From Magnetovibrio blakemorei (GTDB lineage Bacteria; Pseudomonadota; Alphaproteobacteria; Rhodospirillales; Magnetovibrionaceae): DNA of 64,000 nt. Made by a program: the position numbers and the translations under genes. Location of the stretch: the NCBI RefSeq assembly GCF_001746755.1, contig NZ_MCGG01000067.1, positions 1 to 64,000 of the forward strand. Reading direction: 5' to 3'. Positions 46,263 to 62,560 of this stretch are shown here, one piece after another. Position 1 is the stretch's first letter. Each line of letters opens with the position of its first letter. The notes below the pieces were generated by a model that was given only the letters and a program-made list of their open reading frames with translations, ran no database searches and had not been told where the DNA came from.

Positions 46263-46280
46263 AACCTCAACCTCCATCAT

Positions 46281-46325: not shown

Positions 46326-46343
46326 GCAGTTCAGTATGAGCAG

Positions 46344-47827: not shown

Positions 47828-47873
47828 GCGTCGATTATCCCGAGAGGCCTTGGCAGACACAAGACATTTCGCC

Positions 47874-48632: not shown

Positions 48633-48670
48633 GGCGTCCCCTCATTCAGTCTAGGCCATCAACGGCAATA

Positions 48671-49156: not shown

Positions 49157-49339
49157 GGCAGGTACTTTCTTTAAAGGGGGTGTTTGAGAATCAATTGGGT
49201 GATGGCGACAATTTAACCGCTGCCGCTCCAATTTGAAATCACTGTGTTGAGGAATGCATTCGGTAGTTTTCACAGAAGCTTGGAAGAATGGGGGGGGGCC
49301 ACGTAATCGTAGCGCGCAGTCACATACGAATATTCCCGT

Positions 49340-49367
49340 TAATCGCATAATGTATATTATGGAAAAT
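49340..49367 (+). other. dif: Chromosomal dif site / attL of the prophage
   Basis: XerC arm TAATCGCATAA (49340-49350), centre TGTATA (49351-49356) and XerD arm TTATGGAAAAT (49357-49367). The CGCATAA half and the TGTATA centre equal the E. coli dif sequence, and the XerD arm differs at two positions. XerCD acts here on chromosome dimers. The 17 bases from 49351 recur at 60807, marking the left boundary of the prophage. Confidence 0.85.
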
Positions 49368-49445
49368 CGGCTTAAGATTTTCATTTCAAAGGCTTGGCGC
49401 GCTTTCACACACCATCTAGTGATCTTCGCCCCCACACCTACGTAA
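49368..49445 (+). other. Alternative 3' exon-like end of the phage regulator gene (used in the circular form)
   Basis: Reading in frame through the 17-bp core (YIMEN), the left end of the prophage encodes 25 residues, [20 protein letters not shown] plus APTPT, then TAA at 49443-49445. In the excised circle these codons would join the regulator starting at 60335. In the integrated state they are cut off from their start codon. Confidence 0.75.
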
Positions 49446-49491
49446 GCCCGTAGGTTGACGGCATTGGTCATACAATGCCCATTTCTCCCCT

Positions 49492-49932
49492 ATGGCACTG
49501 GAAACTTTCATGGTTGCGTTACCCCCACCCGACAAAATCGGCATGGCAAACTACCTTGAAAAGCTCGCTCATACTTTGCGCTTTCAAGCCGAAAATGACG
49601 CGAAAAGAGTCCTCGACAACGCCAACGTCAACCGCCACCGCGACAAGCTCAAAGACGCCCGCGCCGTGCTCAGGGCGCGCATGTGGCAAGGGCTTGATCG
49701 TCACCGCGCCATCTTGCAAACCGAACAGGAAACAGGCATCCCTCGCGACGTGCTGGAAAAATGGGCCAACTTGGAAGCCGCCGATATCACCCGGCAAAAA
49801 CGTGATCGAGCGATCATGCAAAAATGCGCGACAGGCTGGACCAACCCCCAGCTTGCCACGCATTTCAACGTCTCAGAAACGCACATCGCCCGCATTATCG
49901 CAAAAATGCGCGCCACAGCAAAAAGACCATGA
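49492..49932 (+). CDS. Phage HTH protein (second regulator candidate)
   Basis: The 146-residue basic protein has a C-terminal helix-turn-helix (GWTNPQLATHFNVSETHIARIIAKMRATAKRP) and an N-terminal helical region (NRHRDKLKDARAVLRARMWQGLDRHRAI). In the circular phage it lies 46 bases downstream of the regulator and on the same strand, so the two could form one plus-strand unit. The start could also be the ATG at 49510, which follows GGAAA. It converges on the last minus-strand gene, overlapping it by 38 bases. Confidence 0.7.
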   Translation: MALETFMVALPPPDKIGMANYLEKLAHTLRFQAENDAKRVLDNANVNRHRDKLKDARAVLRARMWQGLDRHRAILQTEQETGIPRDVLEKWANLEAADITRQKRDRAIMQKCATGWTNPQLATHFNVSETHIARIIAKMRATAKRP

Positions 49933-50140
49933 CCAACCCCACCACCCATGGAGTGTATTTTTTGATTGCATCTTCCCGCGCCCATGCGCTTTCGATTTCA
50001 TCAATCCATGACTGGTCAATGATTTCCGCGCCATTTTCAGAACCAGACGAAAACCACGCCGGAACAGACCAGTCCCATTGACTTGCGTCAAAAGCCGTGG
50101 TTTTGAGCCAGTCGGGAACATAGTCCGTCCAAGTCGACAT
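49895..50140 (-). CDS. Small phage membrane protein
   Basis: The 81-residue protein is acidic and Trp-rich in the first 60 residues (MSTWTDYVPDWLKTTAF ... IDEIESAWAREDAIKKY) and ends in one membrane helix (PWVVGLVMVFLLWRAFLR). It is the last gene of the minus-strand series. The topology resembles the small virion-membrane proteins of PM2. Specific role unknown. Confidence 0.7.
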   Translation of the reverse strand: MSTWTDYVPDWLKTTAFDASQWDWSVPAWFSSGSENGAEIIDQSWIDEIESAWAREDAIKKYTPWVVGLVMVFLLWRAFLR

Positions 50141-50144
50141 GATC

Positions 50145-50261
50145 TTAACCCTTCGCCTTCACCACACGCCCGCCCTTGGCGTAGCGATAACCCTTTTTGA
50201 GTTTGGACGTGCCCTTTTTCAAGCCCACCCGCGACTTTGATTTTTTACGCCGTACAGCCAT
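50145..50261 (-). CDS. Tiny highly basic phage protein (38 residues)
   Basis: An ATG at 50261 opens a 38-codon frame with the sequence MAVRRKKSKSRVGLKKGTSK followed by LKKGYRYAKGGRVVKAKG. Almost half of its residues are Lys or Arg. It follows the neighbouring small gene closely on the same strand. It recalls small DNA-condensing or virion-internal proteins, but the role is inferred from charge and place only. Confidence 0.65.
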   Translation of the reverse strand: MAVRRKKSKSRVGLKKGTSKLKKGYRYAKGGRVVKAKG

Positions 50262-50265
50262 AACC

Positions 50266-50418
50266 TCACCCCTTGACCTTGACGGGAACGCCGTCAACAT
50301 ATTTCCAGCCCTTCACCAAAAGGCCGCTCTTGCCGTTGCGATAGGGATTTTCACCCGTCGCACCGCCACCCTTACGCGCCGCAAAAACCTGCTCACGACG
50401 GCTTAAAATCTTGCTCAT
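50266..50418 (-). CDS. Small basic phage protein (50 residues)
   Basis: ATG at 50418 to TGA at 50266: MSKILSRREQVFAARKGGGA, then TGENPYRNGKSGLLVKGWKY and VDGVPVKVKG. It overlaps the stop of the holin-like gene by 4 bases and ends 5 bases before the 38-residue gene. Basic, Gly-rich, with no membrane helix. A virion or DNA-associated protein is possible; unrecognised. Confidence 0.65.
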   Translation of the reverse strand: MSKILSRREQVFAARKGGGATGENPYRNGKSGLLVKGWKYVDGVPVKVKG

Positions 50419-50849
50419 GATTTGCCCCCAAATTTCAAAAGCGCCGCCTTGGCAATGTCGCCCATGTGCGGAGCCGCAAAGTAAAACCCTAGAATTAACA
50501 TCATCGCGCCATTCATCGCCCCGGCGCGCTCCCCAATGACGCTAGAAGCCAACTGCAAATTGACCGGGTTGACCTCCCAAATCGCCACCAAATCAAGCGC
50601 CATGCTGGTCAAATATTGCAGCAACCAAACCGCCGTAATAATCAGCGCCAACAAGCGCCGCGCCAAACTTTGCCCTTGGGTTGAAGCCATCCACTCAACC
50701 ACCATCTTGCGCGCCTCAGAGCGATCCTTTGCCGCATCCCCGGCCTTTTCTTCGTCGGTATACACCAACGCATCTAGGCCACGGGTCACACCGGACACAA
50801 CGCCCTGCAAAGCCGCTTCCGTGCCGAAGATTTTACCAAAAAAACCCAT
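50415..50849 (-). CDS. Holin-like protein of the GTA three-helix type
   Basis: The 144-residue protein begins MGFFGKIFGTEAALQGVVSGVTRGLDALVYTDEEKA. It has RSEARKMVVEWMASTQGQSLARRLLALIITAVWLLQYL and a second or third helix near the C-terminus (AGAMNGAMMLILGFYFAAPH). This order is that of the gene-transfer-agent-type holin family (GTA_holin_3TM). It would form inner-membrane holes at lysis. The start overlaps the preceding stop as TAATG. Confidence 0.75.
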   Translation of the reverse strand: MGFFGKIFGTEAALQGVVSGVTRGLDALVYTDEEKAGDAAKDRSEARKMVVEWMASTQGQSLARRLLALIITAVWLLQYLTSMALDLVAIWEVNPVNLQLASSVIGERAGAMNGAMMLILGFYFAAPHMGDIAKAALLKFGGKS

Positions 50850-50983
50850 TAGATTTCCTTGCCCGCCTTGATTTCCAGACGCAACAGACGACGATCAAAC
50901 TTCCACAAGGCGAAGGCAAGCAACACCGTCGCGGCATCGCCACCCATGCCCAACACCTCGCGAACAGCGTTAAACAATTCCAT
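50849..50983 (-). CDS. Tiny phage membrane protein (44 residues)
   Basis: ATG at 50983: MELFNAVREVLGMGGDAATV, then LLAFALWKFDRRLLRLEIKAGKEI. One membrane helix and a basic tail. It is coupled on both sides (TGATG at the start, TAATG at the end). A place between hydrolase and holin suggests a lysis accessory or spanin-like part. Confidence 0.65.
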   Translation of the reverse strand: MELFNAVREVLGMGGDAATVLLAFALWKFDRRLLRLEIKAGKEI

Positions 50984-51159
50984 CACGCGCCCCTTTTCTT
51001 TAACCAGCGCCAACCCAACCACGCCGCCACGCCCGCAAACAAAATCCACTTCACTTGCGCCGAAATCAATTCGGGCGTTGTTTCGCCATCCTCAGCGCGA
51101 TTGTTGAACCATTCCCACGCCACCACACCCGACAAAGCCCACAACAAAATATTGACCAT
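50983..51159 (-). CDS. Small two-helix phage membrane protein (58 residues)
   Basis: ATG at 51159 begins MVNILLWALSGVVAWEWFNN, followed by RAEDGETTPELISAQ and a second helix VKWILFAGVAAWLGWRWLKK. Two helices with an acidic loop. The stop overlaps the next ATG (TGATG). It sits in the putative lysis cassette. Role not determined. Confidence 0.65.
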   Translation of the reverse strand: MVNILLWALSGVVAWEWFNNRAEDGETTPELISAQVKWILFAGVAAWLGWRWLKKRGA

Positions 51160-51618
51160 CTAAGCCACCCCGAAACGATGCTGGCCAACGACCGCCGTTT
51201 CATTAAAAGCGCTGATCCATGTGGGCGTGACAATGCGCGGATTGTAATAATGGGTTGCCCCGCCCGTCACATCGGGCAGATCGCCCGCAATCGCCAAGCC
51301 CGCGATTTCATAAGCCAGATCAAAAAGCGCATCGCCCTTATTCGGCTCTTTGGTGCGGATCAACGCCGCGTTGGGGTCGTTTTGGTTCCATGCGGTAAAT
51401 TGTGCTTTTTTCATGCATACGGAAATGACGCTATCGCCCCACCAGCCGCCCAAGGTTGCGCGCCGCATCACCACGTTGGCAACGGCTTGCATTCCCGCGT
51501 AGCCTTCGCCCCGCGCCTCACCATAAGCCGTCCTGGCTAACACCAACTGAGCCTCATTCATCCGCCACCGCCACAGGGCAAATAGCCCAACTCCAAAGGT
51601 TAAAAATAGCCATCGCAT
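51160..51618 (-). CDS. SleB-like cell wall hydrolase with N-terminal membrane anchor
   Basis: The 152-residue protein has a membrane helix at residues 2-18 (RWLFLTFGVGLFALWRW), then a Hydrolase_2 (SleB) domain with the conserved ARTAYGEARGEGYAGMQAVANVVMRRA and GATHYYNP. The catalytic Glu lies in YGEARGE. The family cleaves peptidoglycan. Here it may serve host lysis or genome entry through the wall. Start coupled to the preceding stop (TGATG). Confidence 0.85.
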   Translation of the reverse strand: MRWLFLTFGVGLFALWRWRMNEAQLVLARTAYGEARGEGYAGMQAVANVVMRRATLGGWWGDSVISVCMKKAQFTAWNQNDPNAALIRTKEPNKGDALFDLAYEIAGLAIAGDLPDVTGGATHYYNPRIVTPTWISAFNETAVVGQHRFGVA

Positions 51619-51863
51619 CACACCACCAACGGACGCAAGGCGGCAATTTGCGCCTCCACGTCCTGAATGAAGGCAAGCGCCACCGCGTCACCTAAAACCG
51701 CCTCACGTTGTCGCCTATCACTGATTGACGCCTCTAAGGCCAAGATAGCCGCCTCAGCATCACGCCGGGCTTGCCCCGCCGCCCAAGCCACTTCCTCAGC
51801 TTGACGAACAGCAATCTCCGCCGCGCTCAAATCAACCAATTTGCCATTAACGCTTTTTTGCAT
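51618..51863 (-). CDS. Small coiled-coil phage protein
   Basis: The 81-residue Ala- and Glu-rich protein has a predicted heptad-like helix (LSAAEIAVRQAEEVAWAAGQARRDAEAAILALEASISDRRQRE). There is no membrane segment. Its stop overlaps the hydrolase start and its own start overlaps the upstream stop. It may be a chaperone or an attachment of the spike-like protein upstream; inference from position only. Confidence 0.65.
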   Translation of the reverse strand: MQKSVNGKLVDLSAAEIAVRQAEEVAWAAGQARRDAEAAILALEASISDRRQREAVLGDAVALAFIQDVEAQIAALRPLVV

Positions 51864-52408
51864 CACAGCACCCCGTAAATAGAAAATTCACCAGACACCA
51901 AACCAGCCGTTAAAAGAAAACTTACGGCGTTAATCTCCGCACCTGTGCCAACTCCACCCGATCCTTGATTGCGAACCATATGAGCAGCACGCCAATGCGT
52001 GCCAGACCAATGACAGCTTTTAAAATACACAGGATTTGAAGGGTTTTTTAACTCTAAGGTAAATTCCCCAGAGTTTCCCGCAGTTGTTCCTAAACCCTCA
52101 CCTACAATATTCATGAGAATTTGACCCGCGCTTGCCGCTCCTCCATCAGCACCCCCCGCCCCATCCTCCCTATCACTTCTTGTCTTGTAAAAATGAGAGG
52201 ATAAAAAAGTTGCCCCTCCATCACTAGATAGCTTGAAAAGCAAAGACACATTGTCAGAACTCGTAACAATGTCATGCCCCTCAAAAATAAAGTTTTTGTA
52301 AGCAGTATCAATAATTCCATCTGTAAAATCGACAGAGGAAACACCCGCCACAACTTGACGATTAATTAATTTGATTGATCCGCCACCGCTTGAGCTAAAT
52401 CCGGTCAT
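51863..52408 (-). CDS. Phage beta-rich structural protein, spike or receptor-binding candidate
   Basis: The 181-residue Gly/Ser-rich protein has the pattern VSSVDFTDGIIDTAYKNFIFEGHDIVTSSDNVSLLFKLSSDGGATFLSS, a repeated motif in phage host-contact proteins. There is no membrane helix. Base composition is more AT-rich than in its neighbours (runs such as aaaataaagtttttgtaa), which may reflect horizontal exchange of a host-range gene. GAGG lies 8 bases before the ATG. Confidence 0.7.
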   Translation of the reverse strand: MTGFSSSGGGSIKLINRQVVAGVSSVDFTDGIIDTAYKNFIFEGHDIVTSSDNVSLLFKLSSDGGATFLSSHFYKTRSDREDGAGGADGGAASAGQILMNIVGEGLGTTAGNSGEFTLELKNPSNPVYFKSCHWSGTHWRAAHMVRNQGSGGVGTGAEINAVSFLLTAGLVSGEFSIYGVL

Positions 52409-52411
52409 GAC

Positions 52412-52996
52412 TTAACCCTCTTCTAAAACACGCACGTCTTGCCCCGCCGTGCCGCTTATCGCATAAACCGCCGCCGAAACACCCGACAAGGTGAACGCGC
52501 CGCCATTGGCCGCAACCTCTAGACCATCGGCCACCGTCACACCCGCACCGCCCAAATAAATGGGTTGCGCGCCTAAATTTTGGATGGTTACAGACTTGCG
52601 CGCCGCATTGGCAGCAACAACAAGACCAGCGGCAACCCCTACGACCACAGCCGCCGTTGAATAACTTGACGCCAAGCCAAGATCCACCGTACCCGATATT
52701 GAAATCGTCCCCGACGCCTGAAAACGACCATCGTCAATCGCGCCCTCACCGACACCAATGTTGAACGTGACGGCACCGCCCGAATTGTTTACAACGCGAA
52801 TCGAACTGAAGCCCTTAGGCACCGGAATACCGACGCCAACAGGCACCAAATACGGACTGTAGCCGTCAACACCGACATCAAGCTCCGTTGCGCCCGTGCA
52901 ATCGAGAATGCGGAAAAAATGCCCCTCGAAATTCAGCGTAATTCCCGCGCCATTGGCAAGCGTATAAGGCTCGATTTTATAAGGTTCACCACTCAT
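52412..52996 (-). CDS. Phage beta-rich structural protein
   Basis: The 194-residue Gly/Ala/Val-rich protein has alternating beta-prone stretches (GITLNFEGHFFRILDCTGATELDVGVDGYSPYLVPVGVGIPVPKGFSSIRVVNNSGGAVTFNIGVG) and no charges in its C-terminal half. It resembles receptor-binding or vertex proteins of small phages but is not assigned. GAGG seven bases upstream decides the start at 52996; an upstream in-frame start lies inside the previous gene. Confidence 0.7.
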   Translation of the reverse strand: MSGEPYKIEPYTLANGAGITLNFEGHFFRILDCTGATELDVGVDGYSPYLVPVGVGIPVPKGFSSIRVVNNSGGAVTFNIGVGEGAIDDGRFQASGTISISGTVDLGLASSYSTAAVVVGVAAGLVVAANAARKSVTIQNLGAQPIYLGGAGVTVADGLEVAANGGAFTLSGVSAAVYAISGTAGQDVRVLEEG

Positions 52997-53000
52997 CTTT

Positions 53001-53417
53001 TTACCTCTTAAACAAAATGCCCAAAGCCACCACCGACGCACCGACCAAAATCAAAGCCTTCAAAGCCAACATTCCAATTTCTTTTTGATCGCTCTCAACC
53101 TTTTCGGCCAAAATCTTGTTGTTTTCCGTGAACGCTTGGGAAAAGGCATCGGTCACATTTTCGACAGCCTTCGCCGCACCCTCCAAGCCCGCCTCAAGAA
53201 CATCTTTCGCCCCGGCAATCGCGCCGTAATCCGTAAAAGACACATCACCCGAACCCGACACCGCCAAACCGTCACCGCCTACCGTTGCGCGCTGGTCATA
53301 TTGATCCGAACTCGTTGAACTTGAGCTTGACGATTGCGACGACGAAGAGCCGCCATGCACCGCCACCCCATAGCGCCCGAACCGTTCCCGAAACCGGATA
53401 TCTGCCGGGTGCGCCAT
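53001..53417 (-). CDS. Phage membrane protein with Ser-rich stretch
   Basis: The 138-residue protein has a Ser tract (SSSSQSSSSSSTSS near residue 25), an Ala-rich helix (AKDVLEAGLEGAAKAVENVTDAFSQAF) and a C-terminal membrane helix (LALKALILVGASVVALGILFKR). The topology, with the bulk outside and a single anchor, fits an internal-membrane protein of the virion. Start overlaps the preceding stop (TAATG). Confidence 0.7.
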   Translation of the reverse strand: MAHPADIRFRERFGRYGVAVHGGSSSSQSSSSSSTSSDQYDQRATVGGDGLAVSGSGDVSFTDYGAIAGAKDVLEAGLEGAAKAVENVTDAFSQAFTENNKILAEKVESDQKEIGMLALKALILVGASVVALGILFKR

Positions 53418-53839
53418 TAGACAACGCCCTTTTTAAACACCACTTCCGTCTTGCGAAAACCAGCGTCCCGCAAAGAGCCGATAAACCGCGATCCGCCCGC
53501 AACGTGGGTACGCATGGACGCGCAACCACGGGACCGGGCGAAATTCTCCAAGGCCGGAAGCGTGAGCCGTGCCGCTGATTTATGATTGCGGAACGCCTCG
53601 CCCGCTTGGATCACCAATTCACGGGTGCGCCCAAAATCATCAACCCACAACACCACATAGCCCAACGCATCCGCCCCCAAAGAAACGAGATACAACGTCG
53701 CGTGCCCCTCGATAACTTCCCGGCGCAAATCGTCCAGCGTGTAAGTGGGATCAACACCCGCCGCACCCTGCAACAAAATCGCGGCCTGTTCATTCCAAGC
53801 TACGGATTTCAAATTTACGTTTTGCGTCTGCTCAACCAT
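53417..53839 (-). CDS. GNAT-like fold phage protein
   Basis: The 140-residue soluble protein has the order of a GNAT acetyltransferase: YTLDDLRREVIEGHATLYLVSLGADALGYVVLWVDDFGRTRELVIQ, then helix SAARLTLPALENFARSRGCASMRTHVAG and the terminal LRDAGFRKTEVVFKK. The acetyl-CoA loop (Q/RxxGxG/A) is not clear, so enzymatic activity is uncertain. It lies among structural genes. An adapted non-catalytic structural role is possible. Confidence 0.6.
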   Translation of the reverse strand: MVEQTQNVNLKSVAWNEQAAILLQGAAGVDPTYTLDDLRREVIEGHATLYLVSLGADALGYVVLWVDDFGRTRELVIQAGEAFRNHKSAARLTLPALENFARSRGCASMRTHVAGGSRFIGSLRDAGFRKTEVVFKKGVV

Positions 53840-54033
53840 GCGAAAGCCACCAATGCCAAAGCCACAACAACCACGACCCCCATTGAGCCGATACCCGAAC
53901 CGCCCGTGATCACATCGCCAAACGTGGCGTTTGCGCTCATTGTGGCGGCACTGTCCGAAAACGCATCAGAGGGGGCGGCATCGCCACCCTGCAATGATGT
54001 TCCGCCCCCAAGCGCCTCCGTAAACGGGTCCAT
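53815..54033 (-). CDS. Small phage membrane protein (72 residues)
   Basis: An acidic, Gly/Ala-rich N-terminal half (MDPFTEALGGGTSLQGGDAA ...) is followed by one membrane helix (GSMGVVVVVALALVAFAWLS) and a basic end RRKT. This is the topology of PM2-type small virion membrane proteins. It overlaps the GNAT-like gene by 25 bases. Confidence 0.7.
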   Translation of the reverse strand: MDPFTEALGGGTSLQGGDAAPSDAFSDSAATMSANATFGDVITGGSGIGSMGVVVVVALALVAFAWLSRRKT

Positions 54034-54036
54034 AGA

Positions 54037-54354
54037 TCAACGCCCCTTCATCAAAGCGATAACGGCAATGATCAAACCCGCCGCCGCGATCCACATGCCG
54101 ATTTTCTGATAATCGGTAGAGGCAAAACTATCGCCCATACTTTGCGCGCCACCCGCACCACTGCCAAACGTGGCTTGCCCAGACGTAGGCACCAAGCCCG
54201 CCGCCATAGACCGCTTGTAAATATCCAAATCGGCAATTTTGGAACCCCAATCGGTGAAGATATCCAAAATGCCGTTTAGAGACCCCGTTCCCCAAGTCGC
54301 AGAACCGGAGCCACCCCCCGAAGTCGAAGTGCCAGTTCCAAATAACCAACCCAT
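54037..54354 (-). CDS. Small phage membrane protein (105 residues)
   Basis: Gly/Ser-rich N-terminus (MGWLFGTGTSTSGGGSGSAT), a middle amphipathic region (LNGILDIFTDWGSKIADLDIYKRS) and a C-terminal membrane helix (IGMWIAAAGLIIAVIALMKGR). AAGGGG eight bases upstream supports the ATG at 54354. It follows the capsid gene directly and is probably a virion membrane protein. Confidence 0.7.
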   Translation of the reverse strand: MGWLFGTGTSTSGGGSGSATWGTGSLNGILDIFTDWGSKIADLDIYKRSMAAGLVPTSGQATFGSGAGGAQSMGDSFASTDYQKIGMWIAAAGLIIAVIALMKGR

Positions 54355-54420
54355 CACATATACCCCTTAAAAATTGAGAGGCTGGCACGCCCTGCCCCAC
54401 AACGTGCCAGCCGATGAAGA

Positions 54421-55278
54421 TTAGTCGGGTTGCCCCAACACCTCCTCATGGAGAACCGTGTACGCCGCCGCAGCCGCGTTAAAGTCCAATTTCAAGCGGA
54501 AACCATTTGCGCCCTGTGTCGGGACAATACCGCTGTAGCGATTGCCCGAAAAATCAAGGTGCGTATAGCCCGCCTGAGGGGTACGGCTTACGGTTTGGAA
54601 GCTTTCGATATCCGCGATCAAATCCGACAAGCCCGTTGTCACTTCACGGATTTTCGTGTCATTGAGCAGCACTTCAAAGCTGTCAATTGCCGCCGAACTG
54701 ATATGCAGCGCCTTAACGCCGCGACCGGTTTCCGGACCACGAATAGGCAAGTCGTGAATTTCAACACGACCAGCCGCCGACACGTTGCCATAAGACGTGG
54801 AACGCACGCGCAAAATCTGACCCGGAGGACGAGACACCAAACCACCCGCGCCCCATTGCAAATTCGCGAAAGCCCGCAATTCAGGAGCTACGGAAGCCGC
54901 CGCGATCTTGACTTCAAGGGTCACGTTCAACAGGCCCTTTGTGCCCAGCGCAAAACGCTGCTCTTCAATCGGGTCCATGAATTCAGGCCGAATGAAGGGG
55001 ATCACGAAATAACCGGCAACCATGGGGAAGCCGTAATATTGATTGAGCATCACCAGTTCCGCACCGGAAATATCAATCATAGGCTCACCATTGACCTTGA
55101 GCTTGATATTGTCGATATGCGTCCCGAAATCGGCAACGGCGCACAGCGTAGACGCGGTGTGCTTCAATTCCAAAATCAGGTAGCGATACGTTGAACCATC
55201 GGCAGGTAAGGACAAGTTAGCAACTTGACCGACGCCGACAGCGTTGAACGACTGCAATTCACGGGTAACGTCACGCAT
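54421..55278 (-). CDS. Major capsid protein, PM2 P2-like (double jelly roll)
   Basis: The 285-residue protein is close in length to PM2 P2 (269). From what I recall of P2, shared blocks are an N-terminal VANLSLPADGSTYRYLILEL, the RPE followed by QRFALGTKGLLNVTLEVKI, and IHDLPIRGPETGRGVKALHISSAAIDSFEVLLNDTKIREV (P2 has FALGTVGL and DLP...AIHI...DAVEF..DGTKWRDL). Such proteins form trimeric double-jelly-roll capsomers on a lipid membrane. It is beta-rich with no membrane helix. The fold is inferred from this family resemblance. Confidence 0.82.
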   Translation of the reverse strand: MRDVTRELQSFNAVGVGQVANLSLPADGSTYRYLILELKHTASTLCAVADFGTHIDNIKLKVNGEPMIDISGAELVMLNQYYGFPMVAGYFVIPFIRPEFMDPIEEQRFALGTKGLLNVTLEVKIAAASVAPELRAFANLQWGAGGLVSRPPGQILRVRSTSYGNVSAAGRVEIHDLPIRGPETGRGVKALHISSAAIDSFEVLLNDTKIREVTTGLSDLIADIESFQTVSRTPQAGYTHLDFSGNRYSGIVPTQGANGFRLKLDFNAAAAAYTVLHEEVLGQPD

Positions 55279-55294
55279 TGGACCGCCCCCCCCC

Positions 55295-55429
55295 TTAAGA
55301 AATTACGTCGTAGATTTCGGACAACACGGGGATATCGTTTTCATTTCCCCACTTGACCAACAACACCAGCAGACCCACCCCGATCATCACCGGAACGGAA
55401 GCCTTTAACAAATCCGTCACCTTTTTCAT
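55295..55429 (-). CDS. Tiny phage membrane protein (44 residues)
   Basis: ATG at 55429: MKKVTDLLKASVPVMIGVGL, then LVLLVKWGNENDIPVLSEIYDVIS. One membrane helix. It immediately precedes the capsid gene and follows the terminator-like hairpin. A longer frame from 55495 reads through that hairpin and is rejected. Confidence 0.65.
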   Translation of the reverse strand: MKKVTDLLKASVPVMIGVGLLVLLVKWGNENDIPVLSEIYDVIS

Positions 55430-55442
55430 TCCAACAAACCCC

Positions 55443-55488
55443 AAAAAAAGAAAAACCCCAGTCACGCCGCCCGCGTGAACCTGAGGTT
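55443..55488 (-). terminator. Terminator-like hairpin ahead of the virion genes
   Basis: On the minus strand, stem AACCTCAGGTTCACGC pairs with GCGTGACTGGGGTT (one mismatch and a 2-base bulge), followed by TTTTTCTTTTTTT. It lies between the ATPase stop and the capsid operon, 14 bases before the first ATG, leaving no room for a downstream promoter. It may act as an attenuator. Confidence 0.65.
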
Positions 55489-55520
55489 TATCCAATTCCC
55501 TTTTTTTGGGAGTTTCATCG

Positions 55521-55540
55521 CTCCGTATACGTATACGGAG
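55521..55540. repeat. Perfect 20-bp palindrome
   Basis: CTCCGTATACGTATACGGAG lies immediately after the ATPase stop codon. A shorter version, TTCCGTATACGGAA, is at 56737-56750. Its place upstream of the virion genes suggests an operator or binding site. Confidence 0.7.
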
Positions 55541-56188
55541 CTAGGTAGGGGGGATGATCCGCAATTCGCCGTTTTCATCCCTGTAGACGTGATGGAAGCG
55601 CTCAAGCTCTTGGATCATTTGCCCCGCGCCCTGCACTTGCATGGCCCGTTCCGCCGCCTCGATATCGTTGGAAAATGACAGGGCAAACGATGCCACCCGG
55701 TCAAGGTTTCCGCGTGCCCTTGGCGACACTTCCGCGGGACGTTGGGCCAAGTACACAACGTCAATCCCACGCTTGCCGCCCTTGGACATAATGCGGCCAA
55801 AGCCGGAATGTTTTGGCTTAACGTGCAATCCAAAACTGTCCTGAGCTTCATCGACAACAAACATCACCTTGCGTTCGTTTTCGCCCAGCTTATACGGCTC
55901 TTGGAGCGCCTGAACGATCCGCGAGACCTGATGCAATTCGGCCTCTTCATGCATTTCCTGAGGGACATAGATCAAACGGAAATTGCCGTCCCAACAATCT
56001 TCCAAGACGCGGAGAAAATCGGCCAGATCAACGGCACGATAAAACCCTTTCAAATCGTCAAATTGCTCTTCCGGATCAAACACGATAACGCGATCCATAC
56101 CCCTAACCATATTCTTGACATATGTCGTTTTGCCGCTTTGGGATTTTCCATATACGGCCATACGCAACCCGCTTCTAGTTCCCGACAT
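55541..56188 (-). CDS. Genome-packaging ATPase (FtsK/HerA type, PM2 P9-like)
   Basis: The 215-residue protein has Walker A YGKSQSGKTT near residue 15, Walker B MFVVDEAQD near 120 and a later sensor region GIDVVYLAQRPAEVSPRARGNLD. This is the layout of the A32/P9 packaging ATPases of membrane-containing viruses. Inovirus Zot is related but has a C-terminal membrane helix, absent here. ATG at 56188 lies six bases from AAGGGG; an ATG at 56194 is also possible. It overlaps the preceding stop by 14 bases. Confidence 0.85.
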   Translation of the reverse strand: MSGTRSGLRMAVYGKSQSGKTTYVKNMVRGMDRVIVFDPEEQFDDLKGFYRAVDLADFLRVLEDCWDGNFRLIYVPQEMHEEAELHQVSRIVQALQEPYKLGENERKVMFVVDEAQDSFGLHVKPKHSGFGRIMSKGGKRGIDVVYLAQRPAEVSPRARGNLDRVASFALSFSNDIEAAERAMQVQGAGQMIQELERFHHVYRDENGELRIIPPT

Positions 56189-56696
56189 GCTCATCCCCTT
56201 CGCTTGAGGTTTCCGCAACAGTCGCAGAAACCCGCGCTTTTCGCTTTTCCATTTTCTCGTTAAGTACGCCCTTGACCACCGGACCAAAACCGATGAACAA
56301 AATAATCGCATCCTCAAGAGCCTGAGACCCCAGACGTTCCAAAAGAGGAGCAATCGCACTATCAGCGAGACGCCGATAGACCACTTCCACGGAAGCCCTG
56401 AATTCTTCATCGCCCGCGTCAATTTGAAGAGACTTATAGCCCCGCTTGCGCCCGATCCACGCGCACGTTTTGACGACATGGTTATGAAACTTATCTTCCG
56501 TATAGAAGCGCTTGACATCATCCGTTGTAATTCGGCCCTGAGGCTCGTCGTTTTCATTCGCCGCCTCGCCACCCTCAAAAACGACTTCACCATCAACCAC
56601 CCGTGCCCCAAATAACGGACTTTGCGGCACGTCCTCAGCTTCACCAGCTAAGGGACCATCCGTTTCCACTTCCGCCTTTTTGTTCATTCCGAACAT
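56175..56696 (-). CDS. Hypothetical phage protein (173 residues)
   Basis: The acidic N-terminal third (AEVETDGPLAGEAEDVP) is followed by a helical domain (ITTDDVKRFYTEDKFHNHVVKTCAWIGRKRGYKSLQIDAGDEEFRASVEVVYRRLADSAIAPLLERLGSQALEDAIILFIGFGPVVKGVL). One moderately hydrophobic helix near residue 130-150. AAGGGG six bases before the ATG at 56696 decides the start. Unrecognised; cotranscribed with the ATPase, possibly a packaging partner. Confidence 0.7.
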   Translation of the reverse strand: MFGMNKKAEVETDGPLAGEAEDVPQSPLFGARVVDGEVVFEGGEAANENDEPQGRITTDDVKRFYTEDKFHNHVVKTCAWIGRKRGYKSLQIDAGDEEFRASVEVVYRRLADSAIAPLLERLGSQALEDAIILFIGFGPVVKGVLNEKMEKRKARVSATVAETSSEGDEHVGN

Positions 56697-57006
56697 CGCT
56701 TGCCCCTTCGTTTGCGTTACGCGTTTCCGCCTTGGTTTCCGTATACGGAACTTGAGGCGCTTTTTGTTCCGGAATTTCCGGAACTGGCACCGTCTCATTG
56801 CGTATAGGCTCGAACATCGGCAAATCGCTTTCGTGCGATACGTCCGGATTGAACCGATGATGTTGCAGACACGTTTTTTCTTTGTGATTTACATAGAACC
56901 GCCCGTGTCCTTTTGTTTCACCTTGCCGAAAAACTTCAACACGCACCGTCTTGCCGTGCATGTAACATTCCGGACAAGGGACCGTGCCGTATGGTCCCGT
57001 CGCCAT
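56641..57006 (-). CDS. Phage zinc-finger-like protein
   Basis: The 121-residue protein has an N-terminal Cys/His module: VPCPECYMHGKTVRVEVF ... HGRFYVNHKEKTCLQHH, with two Cys in CPEC and a later Cys/His group, which may bind zinc. The C-terminal half is Glu/Pro-rich and unstructured. It overlaps Rep (TAATG) and the next gene by 56 bases. Function unknown. Confidence 0.65.
   Translation of the reverse strand: MATGPYGTVPCPECYMHGKTVRVEVFRQGETKGHGRFYVNHKEKTCLQHHRFNPDVSHESDLPMFEPIRNETVPVPEIPEQKAPQVPYTETKAETRNANEGASDVRNEQKGGSGNGWSLSW
56737..56750. repeat. 14-bp palindrome TTCCGTATACGGAA
   Basis: Shares the core TCCGTATACGGA with the 20-bp palindrome at 55521-55540. It lies inside the coding region of the zinc-finger-like gene. 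Confidence 0.55.
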
Positions 57007-58181
57007 TAAAACGGTACTCCCTCTCTCTGTTCGTCTATGAAAAATAGCCGCTTATCCGCCGCAAAATATTTGCGCTTGAACTGGACCGGATCACGGCTTG
57101 CAAAGGCGCTAAATTCATCCGCGATAACTTGCGCGAATTCGTGCGCCGCCTCCTCAGGAGTGTTGCCCATGGCGACGGCATAGCTCACGCACCATCCCAT
57201 CACGCCGTTGCGGTACATATCTTGAATATCTTCACGCCGCCCCTCGACAACACGCTTTCTATCCGCCTTCGCCATATACGGAACAAGAGCCGTGTTGACC
57301 TCTTCACGCAAAATGGCCCAAAGCGCATGATCTGGAACGCGTGTTACATTTTCGCCCGGTTCAGGTTGGCGCTTCATCATCCGCACGGCTTGACACGCGG
57401 AACCGAACAGCGCCGCGAATTTCACTTCCAAATCTTCAAACGTGGTGATTTTCCATTCTTTCAAATGGATCTTCCCGGCGCGCATTTCGACACGCCAAAT
57501 GGGTGGGCAATCGTCCTTTTCAAAGCCCCAAAGCGCATACCAATGCGAAGATACCTTGCGCGCCACTTCCCGCCGCTTGTCATAGATGATGGTTTGCCGC
57601 CCCGGCATCTTGCCGATGGTGACGCTATTGCTCATTCTGTTTGCGTATGAAACGACGAATTCAGAGCCGCCCAAGGGGATGCCCTCTTGATCATCACCGC
57701 GTACCAGCATTTGACTGTGTGAATGGCAAGAGACGAGCCCCACGTCCAACGTGAAGCCCTCAGCAACGAAATCAACGGCAAAATCCACCCGCGATATACT
57801 TTCGTCTATCACCTTGGCCCCAAAGGCCTCTAGCCGCCCATACAGCGCCGCCTTGGTTTCGTGATATCCGTTGACGGCTAATTGAGCGTTTGCGACGGAA
57901 ACACGAATATTCCACTCCCTAGGGTCCGGATTATCCTTAATAGTCCAGATTTCACCGTCCGGACCTGTATCAAAGCAAAAAGCATACCCACCAGAAGCGC
58001 CCGTTTTACCAATATGACCGTGCACGCCTTCAATAACCACATATTCAGGCTTTCCTTCCGACGTGGCTTTTGCCTTCGCATCGCGCATGAGAGCGCGAAC
58101 ACTTGAAGGCAAACACCCCATAAACGCCACGTCTAGGCTATCAATCCCTTTTCTCAGGACTCGATATTCCGATTGTTCCAT
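57006..58181 (-). CDS. Replication initiator, Rep_trans family
   Basis: The 391-residue protein has Rep_trans hallmarks: ISRVDFAVDF, VTIGKMPGRQTIIYDKRREV and WRVEMRAGKIHLKEW. This family of initiators serves rolling-circle plasmids and filamentous phages such as CTXphi (RstA). I do not see the HUH motif of the PM2 P12 type. It should nick and start replication of the circular phage genome. It lies upstream of the packaging genes in the same minus-strand series. Confidence 0.87.
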   Translation of the reverse strand: MEQSEYRVLRKGIDSLDVAFMGCLPSSVRALMRDAKAKATSEGKPEYVVIEGVHGHIGKTGASGGYAFCFDTGPDGEIWTIKDNPDPREWNIRVSVANAQLAVNGYHETKAALYGRLEAFGAKVIDESISRVDFAVDFVAEGFTLDVGLVSCHSHSQMLVRGDDQEGIPLGGSEFVVSYANRMSNSVTIGKMPGRQTIIYDKRREVARKVSSHWYALWGFEKDDCPPIWRVEMRAGKIHLKEWKITTFEDLEVKFAALFGSACQAVRMMKRQPEPGENVTRVPDHALWAILREEVNTALVPYMAKADRKRVVEGRREDIQDMYRNGVMGWCVSYAVAMGNTPEEAAHEFAQVIADEFSAFASRDPVQFKRKYFAADKRLFFIDEQREGVPF

Positions 58182-58231
58182 TAGTCTGTAATCCTAGAGG
58201 GGGGTGCTACATAGACCCCCGCTTAGTTCCG

Positions 58232-58447
58232 TCAATAAAAACGATCATCTTTCAATTGCTTCGCCAACTCTTCAACAAGCGCACCAATTGAACGCTTAAC
58301 CAGCGCCGTTTCACCGTTGTATGAAATCTTTTTGCAAACAGGCTTAGGACACGCCGTTCTGCTCAGTAAAAGCTCACCCGAAGTTATGCCATTGCGAACC
58401 GAAACCTTAACGCTCAACTCAAGATCATGATCTCTGTCATTGCTCAT
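58232..58447 (-). CDS. Small hypothetical phage protein (71 residues)
   Basis: MSNDRDHDLELSVKVSVRNG at the N-terminus, then a two-Cys stretch TACPKPVCKK, and a C-terminal helix (LVEELAKQLKDDRFY). Its start overlaps the preceding stop (ATGA). Unrecognised; early-region accessory. Confidence 0.6.
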   Translation of the reverse strand: MSNDRDHDLELSVKVSVRNGITSGELLLSRTACPKPVCKKISYNGETALVKRSIGALVEELAKQLKDDRFY

Positions 58448-58689
58448 TGGTCAAACTCCCAAGCCAAGCATTCCATGTAACTTGCCATCACTTCCGCACT
58501 CAAAAACACCGTGCCCGAAGCTGGCAAATAATCAGGGCGGCCCATACGAAGCAACGCGGCCAACGCCTTCTTTTTTGACGTTGAGGAACCCGAAAACATG
58601 ATGTTTCCGGCAACTTCAAAGGCGAAATACCAATGCCCCTTTTCCACCCTTTTTAACGTGATAATCGCCGCAACTTTAATTCCGCTCAT
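58444..58689 (-). CDS. Small hypothetical phage protein (81 residues)
   Basis: Beta-prone first half (IKVAAIITLKRVEKGHWYFAFEVAGNIMFSGSSTSKKKALAALLRMG) and a C-terminal helix (SAEVMASYMECLAWEFDQ). It is coupled by 4-base overlaps to both neighbours. Unrecognised. Confidence 0.6.
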   Translation of the reverse strand: MSGIKVAAIITLKRVEKGHWYFAFEVAGNIMFSGSSTSKKKALAALLRMGRPDYLPASGTVFLSAEVMASYMECLAWEFDQ

Positions 58690-58868
58690 GCCACCAACTC
58701 CAACTTGTCAAACTCAACACAATAGCCGCCATCATCCGCCGCAAAATCGTGACGCTCACACCATCCGCCAACGCGGAACCGACACCGCCCACAGCGCAGA
58801 GGCGAATTGCCACCGCCTGAAACCACGTCAAAATCACGATCCAATAACGGGGTGATATGGCGCACCAT
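58686..58868 (-). CDS. Small Cys-rich phage protein (60 residues)
   Basis: Contains CGRCRFRVGGWCERH and a later Cys (YCVEFD), a possible zinc-binding module. The ATG at 58868 overlaps the preceding stop (TGATG), which makes it more likely than the upstream frame start. Function unknown. Confidence 0.6.
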   Translation of the reverse strand: MVRHITPLLDRDFDVVSGGGNSPLRCGRCRFRVGGWCERHDFAADDGGYCVEFDKLELVA

Positions 58869-59062
58869 CACTTGACGATCCGCCCCGCCCACATCATCGC
58901 CTCATCAAGCCGCGCCATGGCTTCCGATACGGAGCGATGTACGTCATTGGCCTCAGCGCTCTTGCACTGTTCCGCCCGCTCCGCACCGATTTCAGAAACC
59001 AGCAACGCGATGCATTTGGCATAGTGCTTTGCCGTGTTGTATTTTTCCTCTTGCCTAGTCAT
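58868..59062 (-). CDS. Small helical phage protein (64 residues)
   Basis: Starts MTRQEEKYNTAKHYAKCIAL and continues as helix-rich LVSEIGAERAEQCKSAEANDVHRSVSEAMARLDEAMMWAG. Its start overlaps the upstream stop by 4 bases. Unrecognised. Confidence 0.6.
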   Translation of the reverse strand: MTRQEEKYNTAKHYAKCIALLVSEIGAERAEQCKSAEANDVHRSVSEAMARLDEAMMWAGRIVK

Positions 59063-59520
59063 GACCTAAGCCTCCTCATTTCAAAATTGTCAGGCAATCC
59101 GCCCATGCCATCCTGGTCATAAAAATCATCCCAGAAACGCCAAAAATTCTTGCTGTCAAACGCCCGCGCCGTATTCGACGCCCGCATGTAAAGCGTTGCC
59201 GGGAAATGCTTTGTGCAGGGCAAAAGCTCGACTTTGCAAAACACACCCAAAGGCGGATTTTTCCAGTAAGCCGATTGCGGAAATTCCCGAACCTTGAGCC
59301 AGAAATATTCATGCTCACGCTCACGAAAAACCGTCGCCAAATCGGCAATAAAATCAAACGTACCCTTGAGAGCGAAGTCCTGCCCCTGATACGTCCAAAG
59401 AACCATCCATTGTTTGACGGTTATCGGATCGCGCATTTTTCCCGTGTCCGCATCCAACAAAAAGCCGCCCGTTCCCTTGCGAGAACGGACGGAAGTTTGA
59501 GGAGTGCGAACAAAAGACAT
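59059..59520 (-). CDS. Hypothetical phage protein (153 residues)
   Basis: An aromatic-rich protein: ITVKQWMVLWTYQGQDFALKGTFDFIADLATVFREREHEYFWLKVREFPQSAYW ... SKNFWRFWDDFYDQDG. There is no membrane helix or recognised motif. It lies directly after the SSB-like gene with a 10-base spacer, so it is an early replication-region gene. Function unknown. Confidence 0.65.
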   Translation of the reverse strand: MSFVRTPQTSVRSRKGTGGFLLDADTGKMRDPITVKQWMVLWTYQGQDFALKGTFDFIADLATVFREREHEYFWLKVREFPQSAYWKNPPLGVFCKVELLPCTKHFPATLYMRASNTARAFDSKNFWRFWDDFYDQDGMGGLPDNFEMRRLRS

Positions 59521-59530
59521 TCAACGCGCC

Positions 59531-59974
59531 TTAGTAGGGGATGCTATCGTTATCAACGGACGAAGGCGACGGCGCACCGCCGAAGTCTTGCCCGCCGTTC
59601 CCGGCCTTCGGACGTGACCAGCGCAACGTGAAATTCGCGGGTTTGCCCTTGGGCGTGTCTTTGGGTTGCTCATCATCGGGAAACGCCGCCAAATAAATCG
59701 GCTTGTCGGTCATGTGAGGATGGTCGACGGTGATGGAGAAAAACGAGCCGCCCGCCTTGAGCTTTTTGACCCAACATTGACCAACCACGCCATATTGACC
59801 GGAACGGCTTTTCATCTTCATTTCGTAATCGGGCGACTTGACCGGATCGCGCTTTTCAGCAACCGGGATCAAATAGAAATCGCCAATAATGTTTCCGAAG
59901 TCGATTTCCCCCGCGTACACGGTGGGCTTGCCTTCAACATCACGGCGCAACACATATCCACATTCAATAGCCAT
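59531..59974 (-). CDS. DUF736 family protein with SSB-like C-terminal tail
   Basis: The 147-residue protein matches the DUF736 pattern: SPDYEMKMKSRSGQYGVVGQCWVKKLKAGGSFFSITVDHPHMTDKPIYLAAFPDD ... FTLRWSRP. The C-terminus is disordered and ends VDNDSIPY, close to the acidic tip DDDIPF of bacterial SSB proteins that recruits replication partners. It is the first gene of the minus-strand series and probably binds single-stranded DNA during phage replication. Confidence 0.75.
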   Translation of the reverse strand: MAIECGYVLRRDVEGKPTVYAGEIDFGNIIGDFYLIPVAEKRDPVKSPDYEMKMKSRSGQYGVVGQCWVKKLKAGGSFFSITVDHPHMTDKPIYLAAFPDDEQPKDTPKGKPANFTLRWSRPKAGNGGQDFGGAPSPSSVDNDSIPY

Positions 59975-60334
59975 AGCTGTTTTTCCAATTCTGTTAGCTG
60001 TTTTCGTTTCCTACGCGCTCCGCGCAGGGGCTGTTTTTTGCCGTTTTAAAAACGGGTTTGAAAGAGGGGGGAGAGGTTTTTCAGGCCTCTCCCCATTTTA
60101 GAAAGGGAAGCCATGGCAACCCGTTTCCAAAACACCCCGTTGTGAAACAGCCAGAAACACAGCGCGGGGCTAAAACTTTTTACACCTCATCTTGTGCCGT
60201 TAACCTTTCGTTAACCCCTTCCCTTGGGGGTGGCACACCATTCAGTTGTTAGCTGAAAGATGAAGCATACATCTAGCGATTGTCAACCGTTAACTTAAAG
60301 ATTAGATTTGAACTGCAAAAAAGGAGAACAGCAC
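59975..60334. promoter_or_regulatory. Divergent control region and candidate origin of the prophage
   Basis: A 360-bp gene-free stretch between the early minus-strand operon and the plus-strand regulator. It has nested inverted repeats: GGCTGTTT (60029-60036) with AAACAGCC (60145-60152), AAACGGGTT (60050-60058) with AACCCGTTT (60118-60126), and GGGGAGAGG (60068-60076) with CCTCTCCCC (60086-60094). GTTAAC sites lie at 60199, 60210 and 60289. It may hold both the switch and the Rep origin. Confidence 0.55.
60280..60308 (+). promoter_or_regulatory. Promoter of the phage regulator, with an overlapping operator
   Basis: TTGTCA (60280-60285), 17-base spacer, TAGATT (60303-60308). The spacer contains CCGTTAACTT (60287-60296), a copy of CCGTTAACCTT at 60197-60207, so a GTTAAC-binding repressor would block this promoter. 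On the other strand TTGACA overlaps the same spot. Confidence 0.5.
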
Positions 60335-60868
60335 ATGGCCCGCACCCGCCAAAACACCACCCGCTACATATCGTCTTTTGAGCATGGCCTTACCGTCGAA
60401 ATAGCTGGGAAAATCAAAGACTTTCCTTCTATTGGCGACTACATAGAGGCGTGCCTAGTGACGTGGCCCGGCGACTATAAAAGCCGCTCTGACGTAGCCG
60501 TTGCGCTGGGCATAACCCCTCAAAGTTTGTCTATGTGGATGAACGGCGTGCGCTTTCCAACAGACGAAAATATGGTAAAACTTGCTCACATCTTAGAAAC
60601 CGACGCCGACGCCGCACTAATGCACCTGAATATTTGGCGCACCCGTGGCGAAGCGCAAAATGCATATATTCGCATGGCTAAAAAGATAGGTGCCGTCGCC
60701 GCCGCCATCTTTGGCCTGTATATTTTGACCAATCCGAGCACCGCGCACGCCGCCCCGATTGCCCTAGAACAAATCGGGCACAGCCTAACATGGGCACGGG
60801 AAACAGTGTATATTATGGAAAATTACGTTATATATTTTATATCAATATGTTATGTGGATTATGTTTAA
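60335..60868 (+). CDS. Phage HTH regulator whose 3' end crosses attR
   Basis: In the integrated state it has 177 residues. An HTH-like region (SRSDVAVALGITPQSLSMWMNGVRFPTDENMVKLAHIL) is followed by a hydrophobic segment (IGAVAAAIFGLYILTNPSTA). From residue 158 the gene enters the dif core and its last 14 residues are host-encoded (YVIYFISICYVDYV). In the excised circle it would have 188 residues. AAGGAG eight bases before the ATG at 60335 decides the start. It is probably the lysogeny repressor or a related switch protein, perhaps DUF3693-like. Confidence 0.75.
   Translation: MARTRQNTTRYISSFEHGLTVEIAGKIKDFPSIGDYIEACLVTWPGDYKSRSDVAVALGITPQSLSMWMNGVRFPTDENMVKLAHILETDADAALMHLNIWRTRGEAQNAYIRMAKKIGAVAAAIFGLYILTNPSTAHAAPIALEQIGHSLTWARETVYIMENYVIYFISICYVDYV
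60796..60823 (+). other. attR of the prophage (hybrid dif site)
   Basis: Degenerate XerC arm ACGGGAAACAG (60796-60806), then TGTATATTATGGAAAAT (60807-60823), identical to the left core. The phage attP therefore has a poor XerC arm and a good XerD arm, so after integration only the left copy is a full dif. Confidence 0.82.
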
Positions 60869-60969
60869 ATATACATGAAGTCGTACGTATATGGTGTGTT
60901 GGCGTTTTGGGAGCGTGCTTGGATTGCGGCTTTGAGGCTTGGCTTCTTAGCGTCAGCCTGCCCCGCAGC

Positions 60970-61755
60970 TCAGACCTCTATGGTCAGGCCGTCGTAGGCG
61001 ACGAAGATGTTTTTGGGCAGTTTGGCTTGCAGGGTTTCGAAATCGAGGCCGAAGCCTAAGTGGGTGAAGTACGCGCGTTCCGGCTTTACCCTTTCGCACC
61101 ACGCGAGTGCCGTCTCGACGTCCAAGTGGGTGGGATGCAGTGTGGCGGCAAAGGTGCCCAGCATCCATACTTTGATGCCCTTGAGCAGCTCAAAACCGTC
61201 TTCGTGCATGGAAATCAGGTCCGTTGTGTAGGCAAAGTCGCCAAAGCGTAGCCCAAACGTAGTCATATAGGCATGGTCTTGTTCAATCGCCGTCACCTCC
61301 AAGCCGCCTGCGTTAAACGCTTCGCCGTGGTGAAAGGCATGCATGTTGAGCGTGGTTTTGTAAAACATCGTGGCTTCTGGAGACAACGGTTCCAGCACGT
61401 AGCCAAAGCGGCGTTGGATCGAGGCTATGGTTCCGGCGTCGGCAAACGCCTCAATCGGCGCGTTCATAAGACGGTTGATGCCGCGTAAATCATCAATGCC
61501 ATGCAGGTGATCGGCATGCGCATGTGTGTAAACAACACCGTCGAGGTGCTTGATTTCATGGCGTAAAAGTTGTTCGCGCAAATCCGGTGAGGTGTCGACA
61601 AGGACGGATTTTGATACCCCCTCAATTTGGTCCTCAACCAAAATAGACGGCCGGGTGCGGCGATTTTTTGGGTTTTTCGGGTCACATTTGCCCCATCCGG
61701 CTTCGACGCTGGGGGTGCCGGTGCTGGAACCGCTGCCGAGAACCGTGATGCGCAT
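60970..61755 (-). CDS. Metallo-beta-lactamase-fold hydrolase (PhnP-like)
   Basis: The 261-residue protein has the MBL motif THAHADHLHGIDDLRG and starts MRITVLGSGSSTGTPSVEAGWGKCDPKNPKNRRTRPSILV, as in the PhnP/YycJ-type phosphodiesterases. It also has HMHEDGFELLKGIKVWMLGTFAATLHPTH-like ligands near the C-terminus. Related members hydrolyse cyclic ribosyl phosphates. No phn cluster is present, so the substrate is open. It is 4 bases from tatD, and metG follows upstream on the same strand. Confidence 0.88.
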   Translation of the reverse strand: MRITVLGSGSSTGTPSVEAGWGKCDPKNPKNRRTRPSILVEDQIEGVSKSVLVDTSPDLREQLLRHEIKHLDGVVYTHAHADHLHGIDDLRGINRLMNAPIEAFADAGTIASIQRRFGYVLEPLSPEATMFYKTTLNMHAFHHGEAFNAGGLEVTAIEQDHAYMTTFGLRFGDFAYTTDLISMHEDGFELLKGIKVWMLGTFAATLHPTHLDVETALAWCERVKPERAYFTHLGFGLDFETLQAKLPKNIFVAYDGLTIEV

Positions 61756-61759
61756 GGGC

Positions 61760-62548: not shown

Positions 62549-62560
62549 GGGCGATTGGGG

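Follow-up and report, generated by a model that had tools for sequence, protein, structure and literature searches.

The element and its attachment sites

The window analysed here is a stretch of 64,000 nucleotides from Magnetovibrio blakemorei (contig NZ_MCGG01000067.1, positions 1 to 64,000). It contains a prophage element at 49351-60806, with 11,456 bp between its two dif centres and genes for a capsid protein like P2 of phage PM2 and for a P9-like packaging adenosine triphosphatase (ATPase). The element is read, with a probability of about 0.92, as a temperate, tailless and probably membrane-containing phage of the order Vinavirales, with features of clade A (Mestraviridae), integrated in the dif site of its host. 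Its ends are the following attachment (att) sites.

Left att site, 49340..49367, + strand: chromosomal XerC arm ending in TCGCATAA, centre TGTATA and XerD arm TTATGGAAAAT; a full dif, from its sequence and the sites in congeners
Right att site, 60796..60823, + strand: divergent XerC-side arm ending in GGGAAACAG, centre TGTATA and XerD arm TTATGGAAAAT, followed by an AT-rich chromosomal flank

The dif centres lie at 49351 and 60807, and the two sites are identical over 17 bp, the centre plus the XerD arm; 0 bases to the left of the centre and 11 to its right are common to both ends. This agrees with a preliminary description of the DNA, which had placed an element bounded by dif cores at the same coordinates. 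The exact core CATAATGTATATTATG has a single occurrence in the host genome, and neither tRNA genes nor Rfam families were found at 45000-64000. No att pair appeared in 170 shuffled sequences (10 for each of the 17 loci with a P2 gene described below); the shuffles preserved base composition within each 50-base block, not dinucleotides.

Four of the five congeners (G002, G003, G004 and G005) have one full dif (TCGCATAA T[G/T]TATA TTATGGAAAAT) beside MBL, TatD and MetG genes, which are the genes flanking the window element on the right. SEC-C and YkgJ genes lie on the other side of dif in G002, G004 and G005, while the G003 contig ends before that point. As dif is conserved in place across the congeners, it follows that the window carries an insertion in dif, and the comparison supports a PM2-like tailless prophage as the occupant of this chromosomal site. 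None of the five congeners (G001 being only 67% complete) gave a P2 match, by protein or by the P2_N profile. In three of them about 1.4-3.4 kb of other DNA separates SEC-C from dif, and no half-dif copies were found near this interval.

In G001 (L022/L040) a XerC arm and centre are joined to a foreign XerD side, 0.3 kb from the contig end and on the SEC-C side; this half-dif is probably the mark of another element inserted at the same dif. In G033, a closed genome from another family of the same order, a P2 prophage occupies the corresponding dif locus in the opposite orientation, between the MBL gene found at the window site and a MazG gene. Among 20 stretches of G033 sampled for GC skew, those up to 1.4 Mb have positive values, the one at 0.8 Mb excepted, and those at 1.6-3.0 Mb have negative values.

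Capsid protein and packaging ATPase

The product of 54421-55278 (- strand) matched the Pfam profiles P2_N (1.2e-27) and P2_C (4.7e-24) and, by sequence, the crystal chain of PM2 P2, 2vvf (E 1.9e-10, residues 8-268). An AlphaFold model built with four sequences (predicted local distance difference test score, pLDDT, 57.5) also had PM2 P2 (2vvf) as its best match in the PDB, with E 1.5e-13, probability 1.00 and a template-modelling (TM) score of 0.54; the next matches were mostly other double-jelly-roll capsids. Profile, sequence and fold thus agree on the PM2 P2-like capsid claimed in the preliminary description, and the comparison of predicted structures that it had proposed as a check came out favourably.

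The true start of the ATPase gene is at 56194 and not at the start of the longer open reading frame (ORF). P9-like ORFs were found with phmmer in eight of ten related P2 loci and in phage NO16; the window P9 itself gave no phmmer match in L030, L038, Jorvik or GXT1010. With homologues in related loci and a gene (55541-56194, - strand) that adjoins that of the capsid, the P9-like packaging ATPase named earlier is retained.

Integration route

The tyrosine integrase profile PF00589 gave 18 matches in the host genome, none of them on the contig of the element; in 15 genomes, which represent 14 of the 17 loci plus L038, it had no match close to P2. No recombinase family was seen among the 20 of the 28 element ORFs that were scanned with Pfam; no genome-wide search for serine recombinases was made. 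Within these limits the earlier statement that the element lacks an integrase is upheld. The host recombinases are XerD, whose score of 329.6 bits lies at its cut-off, and a candidate for XerC with 310.7 bits (cut-off 335.15). The element therefore has what marks a Xer-exploiting element, a dif-like site at each end and no integrase of its own, as far as tyrosine recombinases are concerned.

Integration via host XerCD is the most likely route on this evidence. In the proposed cycle, the Rep protein would start rolling-circle copying of a circular phage genome, host XerC and XerD would recombine the circle at dif, exit would follow the same route, and P9 would package double-stranded DNA (dsDNA) into an icosahedral shell that encloses a membrane. 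The sequence supports the earlier reading of a membrane-containing virus that borrows XerCD, with the membrane and the part played by XerCD both deduced from the genes.

Gene content

The element was considered as 28 ORFs, of which 20 were scanned with Pfam, 20 with PHROGs and 10 with NCBIfam. Its core genes are open reading frames throughout. The assigned features are listed below; numbers after profile names are E-values unless given in bits.

49492..49932, + strand: helix-turn-helix (HTH) protein, Mor / late-activator-like (Pfam GerE 2.7e-05, Mor 4.1e-05; phrog_532, late transcriptional activator, 3.1e-06)
49895..50140, - strand: small protein with one predicted membrane helix (hydropathy 1.63)
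50415..50849, - strand: membrane protein, putatively holin-like by position (hydropathy 1.86; phrog_9646, unknown function, 4.7e-33)
51160..51621, - strand: cell-wall hydrolase, SleB superfamily (Pfam Hydrolase_2 3.6e-20; NCBIfam spore_SleB 4e-13, below cut-off)
51863..52408, - strand: virion-module protein, function unassigned (phrog_14820 3.3e-14)
52412..53041, - strand: spike (P1) candidate by position (phrog_30212, unknown function, 1.1e-11; homologues in the same place in other P2 loci)
53001..53417, - strand: P10-position protein with a C-terminal membrane helix (hydropathy 2.43; homologues in related loci)
53417..53839, - strand: GNAT-type acetyltransferase, between the capsid and spike-position genes (phrog_1249, acetyltransferase, 2.5e-4; Pfam Acetyltransf_1 only 0.055)
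53815..54033, - strand: small membrane protein, P8 position (hydropathy 2.48)
54037..54357, - strand: small membrane protein, P3 position (hydropathy 2.18)
54421..55278, - strand: major capsid protein, PM2 P2-like double jelly roll (Pfam, PDB sequence and model matches)
55295..55495, - strand: small membrane protein, P7 position (hydropathy 2.36)
55541..56194, - strand: P9-like packaging ATPase, 217 aa (phrog_2666 5.9e-18 on the longer ORF)
56175..56798, - strand: protein upstream of the ATPase, Gp-h position (homologues in L029, 2.2e-21, and L055, 2.2e-32)
57006..58181, - strand: replication initiator candidate, Rep_trans / RepDE-like (sub-threshold Pfam match and model fold match)
58868..59062, - strand: small protein with an Acb2/Tad1 hairpin domain (Pfam PF24729 28.6 bits, cut-off 27)
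59531..59974, - strand: DUF736 protein (Pfam 2.3e-09; adjoins the early genes; homologues in several related prophages)
60308..60868, + strand: HTH repressor candidate (Pfam HTH_3 3.5e-08; phrog_638 2.9e-16); its 3' end crosses the right att site into the chromosome

The capsid and ATPase were assigned by homology and the acetyltransferase by its PHROG, whereas P3, P7, P8, P10 and the spike were assigned by position and hydropathy only. A simple hydropathy cut (1.6) was passed by eight of the 28 ORFs, which matches the earlier count of at least eight small membrane proteins; two of these (52412 and 56175) are doubtful, and six is the safer count because their products exceed 200 aa. The Acb2/Tad1 family is named for anti-defence proteins that bind cyclic nucleotides. 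The 58868-59062 protein had no phmmer homologue in other P2 loci, and a defence library gave no match among six small proteins of the element.

The model of the Rep candidate (pLDDT 53.9) had Staphylococcus RepDE as its first PDB matches, with E 4e-5 (4cwc) and 1.2e-4 and TM 0.28-0.32, followed by TATA-binding-protein folds. The best reading of this fold is that the protein may be a rolling-circle initiator of the RepDE type. The Rep_trans initiator proposed earlier thus survives in part: 4cwc is the best fold match of a low-confidence model, whereas the Pfam score is sub-threshold. A tblastn search of a phage collection with the window Rep gave no match at E 0.01, PM2-type P12 included.

Known systems and taxonomic place

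Published systems are compared here as far as the available portions of the cited papers describe them. The preliminary description knew of no dif-integrating PM2-like element with a Rep_trans initiator. Integration at dif-like sites by host XerCD has already been proposed for NO16 (PMC9966536) and Jorvik (PMC10589892), and because of these two precedents the novelty of dif/XerCD use mostly falls. In addition, some tailless prophages of Vibrio, a few in number, are located at dif (PMC11630473), and Rep_trans is named among the varied replication genes of Vinavirales (PMC9502842, there in legend text). That paper was the only literature match for Rep_trans, double jelly roll and prophage together, and the words 'Xer' and 'integrase' do not occur in its main text.

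Jorvik (Anticleavirus jorvik, Mestraviridae; OP588643, PMC10589892) has, like the window element, the order capsid, small membrane proteins, acetyltransferase, spike position and hydrolase; it is also temperate, has an alphaproteobacterial host, no predicted integrase and, by its authors' statement, a dif-like phage attachment site (attP). A putative holin sits at the end that matches 50415..50849. Unlike the window element, Jorvik measures 8.8 kb, is inserted in a RuBisCO operon, has its ATPase operon on the other strand, and encodes a short replicase resembling the P1 lytic replication protein, with a lytic transglycosylase and an M15 peptidase instead of a SleB hydrolase. The two capsids barely match (phmmer E 1.4e-4), and the annotated Jorvik attP resembles the XerC half of dif by eye only.

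NO16 (Asemoviridae; MH730557, PMC9966536) shares with the window element P2 and P9 homologues (tblastn 2e-14 and 5e-12), a temperate life style and proposed XerCD/dif integration. It differs in its gammaproteobacterial host and its length of 10.6 kb, and the Rep and hydrolase of the window were not found in it. PM2 itself (a Pseudoalteromonas phage, Corticoviridae; NC_000867) has a matching P2 capsid, in sequence and fold, and the same order of ATPase, P7, capsid and P3; its presumptive dif (PMC9966536) also keeps the XerD half. In contrast to the window element, it is lytic in published work, and has a P12 replication protein and, in place of the SleB hydrolase, a P5 lysin (PMC9502842). The clade A prophages of Vinavirales, compared by description only, are like the window element in being mostly alphaproteobacterial, with a SleB hydrolase, and with an acetyltransferase in most genomes (PMC9502842). 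CTXphi, VGJphi, TLCphi and the gonococcal island (PMC5357621, PMC4246890) likewise use host XerCD and target dif, but are filamentous phages, a satellite and an island rather than tailless icosahedral phages.

The families of Vinavirales have nine signature genes in common (PMC12451628). Both the PM2 P2-type capsid and the P9-type ATPase expected of the order are present in the window, and by its sequence the element is best read as a member. The Rep does not match the P12 type that would point to Corticoviridae. The SleB-type hydrolase in the P5 position and the acetyltransferase between capsid and spike are features of clade A (PMC9502842), for which the name Mestraviridae was proposed in the same paper; the family of that name recognised by the International Committee on Taxonomy of Viruses includes Jorvik (PMC12451628). 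These genes make membership of Mestraviridae likely, and no more than likely because the capsid tree leaves the place of the window open.

Related P2 loci

The P2_N profile scored over its cut-off in ten of 385 genomes of the class and six of 297 of the order, with the window's genome in both, and in 0 of 14 controls. Three relatives in which capsid genes occur carry names: Alphaproteobacteria bacterium UBA6062, Pelagibius and Pseudovibrio. Pairs of att sites, 9,302-11,553 bp apart, were found in ten of 17 P2 loci, the window included; nine have identical centres, and the L034 pair has one centre mismatch and is without a shuffle control. This count leaves aside L038, a 4.4-kb contig, and L064, the G618 match (a 97-aa fragment at a contig start). 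Among the seven loci with no att pair, contig ends truncate L032, L037, L055, L066 and L068, whereas no such truncation is plain in L030 and L036. The two ends of a contig did not overlap exactly in L030, L036, L037, L055, L066 or L068 (the last being part of a contig), so no circular contig was seen among these six.

Of the 17 loci, 14 have a homologue of the window Rep, counting the window, and none was found in L030, L032 and L058. Three genomes that gave no P2 match (G055, G020 and G046) have Rep homologues as well, with best E <1e-50. A filamentous-phage identity for such P2-less homologues was dropped for L051, where Rep stands beside a tyrosine recombinase. At L051:6231-10488 the Rep homologue is near a small HTH (excisionase-like) gene and the recombinase, with a large methyltransferase-like gene on the opposite side (names by eye); the genome has no P2 match, and the locus is perhaps an integrative plasmid or satellite.

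A profile made from the P9 alignment found at least five loci in the genome contigs, one of which, L056, had no capsid match in the stretch examined. Scans of viral contigs with the capsid, Rep and P9 alignments gave no confirmed relatives, and plasmid records gave three Vibrio P2 matches.

Polarity of the att sites and overlap with the repressor

The centre and XerD arm are common to both ends in the window and in L065, whereas in L029, L031, L033, L034, L035, L057 and L067 it is the XerC arm and centre; in L058 the ends have parts of both arms in common. L066 and L068, with one readable end each, look like the window. In the five loci where both ends and both regulators could be placed (window, L031, L033, L057 and L065), the good arm lies by the 49492-type HTH gene and the divergent arm by the repressor. 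L065 and L067 have opposite att polarity even though their DNA is 83-93% identical in four blocks of about 8.6 kb in total; the alignment stops about 0.5 kb before the repressor-side att site in both, and the two differ in the stretch from repressor to attP.

The attP of the window element would accordingly keep the XerD half, with a divergent XerC half. This is the reverse of TLCphi and the gonococcal island, whose attP type it does not fit: there the XerC site and centre are kept and the XerD site is divergent (PMC5357621; for TLC also PMC4246890). It is likewise the reverse of the gokushoviruses, where the phage-borne site is most variable in the spacer and XerD arm (PMC7062461). The attP sites of CTX and VGJ fit no simple half of dif. 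In VGJ the departure from dif is in the part of the centre that is close to the XerD side (PMC5357621, PMC4246890). On CTX the two reviews differ: in one, its sites are like dif on the XerC side and unlike it on the XerD side (PMC5357621), and in the other, attP1 and attP2 possess both binding sites but unsuitable central regions (PMC4246890). No description of a XerD-keeping polarity as a class was found in literature searches, as far as the accessible portions of the papers extend.

In four of nine loci tested (window, L034, L057 and L065) attP lies inside the repressor ORF, so that the circular and integrated forms encode different tails; the last residues of the window repressor candidate are encoded by the chromosome when the element is integrated. 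The site lies inside the repressor ORF in L066 too, which was outside the nine-locus test. A hydrophobic stretch precedes the tail in all four loci by eye; that of the window scores 1.49, below the membrane cut of 1.6. A repressor coupled to integration is offered as an idea and not as a result, and a general role for the tail swap is weighed against by the other five loci, where attP follows the repressor stop by 31-112 nt. The att polarity and the repressor overlap may be new. A wider proposal is speculative and doubtful: that these elements form a mirror-image class of Xer exploiters, with a good XerD arm, a divergent XerC arm and the opposite dif orientation, in which the tail swap of a possibly membrane-anchored repressor couples immunity to integration and an exchangeable repressor-attP cassette flips the polarity, as between L065 and L067.

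Alternative explanations

The element could be a decayed or domesticated remnant that makes no virions and does not excise. In favour of this, the right att site is only half a dif, a state that it shares with most of the related prophages whose ends could be read. Against it, the core genes have open reading frames, the element retains two att sites with the same centre, and relatives with similar gene sets occur in many genomes. A remnant is unlikely. Integration might instead be due to an unrecognised phage recombinase or a helper element, dif being merely a safe site. Integrase genes are regular components of the tailless prophages at dif in Vibrio (PMC11630473), and serine recombinases fell outside the genome-wide search. 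The absence of PF00589 near P2 and of recombinase families among the scanned ORFs speaks against this, as does a common repeat that coincides exactly with one Xer arm and the dif centre, and the explanation appears most improbable.

A virus with single-stranded DNA (ssDNA) like PhiCjT23 or FLiP, packaging one strand and using a RepDE-like initiator, would account for the RepDE-like fold match, and PhiCjT23, whose prophages are flanked by dif, is a double-jelly-roll phage with an ssDNA genome (PMC9719478). The GC skew of the structural (coding) strand is also highest in the window element among 13 elements, at 0.199. This is no proof of an ssDNA genome, because dsDNA PM2 reaches 0.143; nine related prophages lie at 0.02-0.125, and the skew was set aside as not decisive. 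In addition, the window has a P9-type ATPase, whereas the term 'packaging ATPase' is not in the main text of the PhiCjT23 paper (PMC9719478), and the capsid model is nearer PM2 P2 (E 1.5e-13) than PhiCjT23 (6.9e-5). An ssDNA genome is thus very unlikely.

Several points count against a dif-integrated Vinavirales prophage with a Rep_trans initiator. The Rep candidate scores 22.5 bits with Rep_trans (PF02486), below the gathering cut-off of 29.6, only four of 13 aligned Rep homologues match that family at E 0.01, and the Rep profile found no PDB chain by sequence. The AlphaFold models of capsid and Rep are of low to moderate confidence, and the capsid tree (21 rows) puts the window in no supported group. 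A dif scan of Jorvik scored no site, and phmmer found no match to the window P9 among the Jorvik ORFs. In G033 dif lies at 1.26 Mb, at least 0.14 Mb from the switch in sampled GC skew (1.4-1.6 Mb), and is therefore near the terminus only approximately. Finally, circular form, particle and lipid are predicted here from genes alone.

Conclusions

The preferred reading remains that of a tailless, probably membrane-containing Vinavirales phage that would enter its host chromosome at dif by way of XerCD. Among the P2-bearing tailless prophages examined around this host, insertion flanked by dif is frequent and is not peculiar to Jorvik or NO16. Natural pairs of elements that use either half of dif would make it possible to test directly which of the two recombinases acts first once an arm has been lost.

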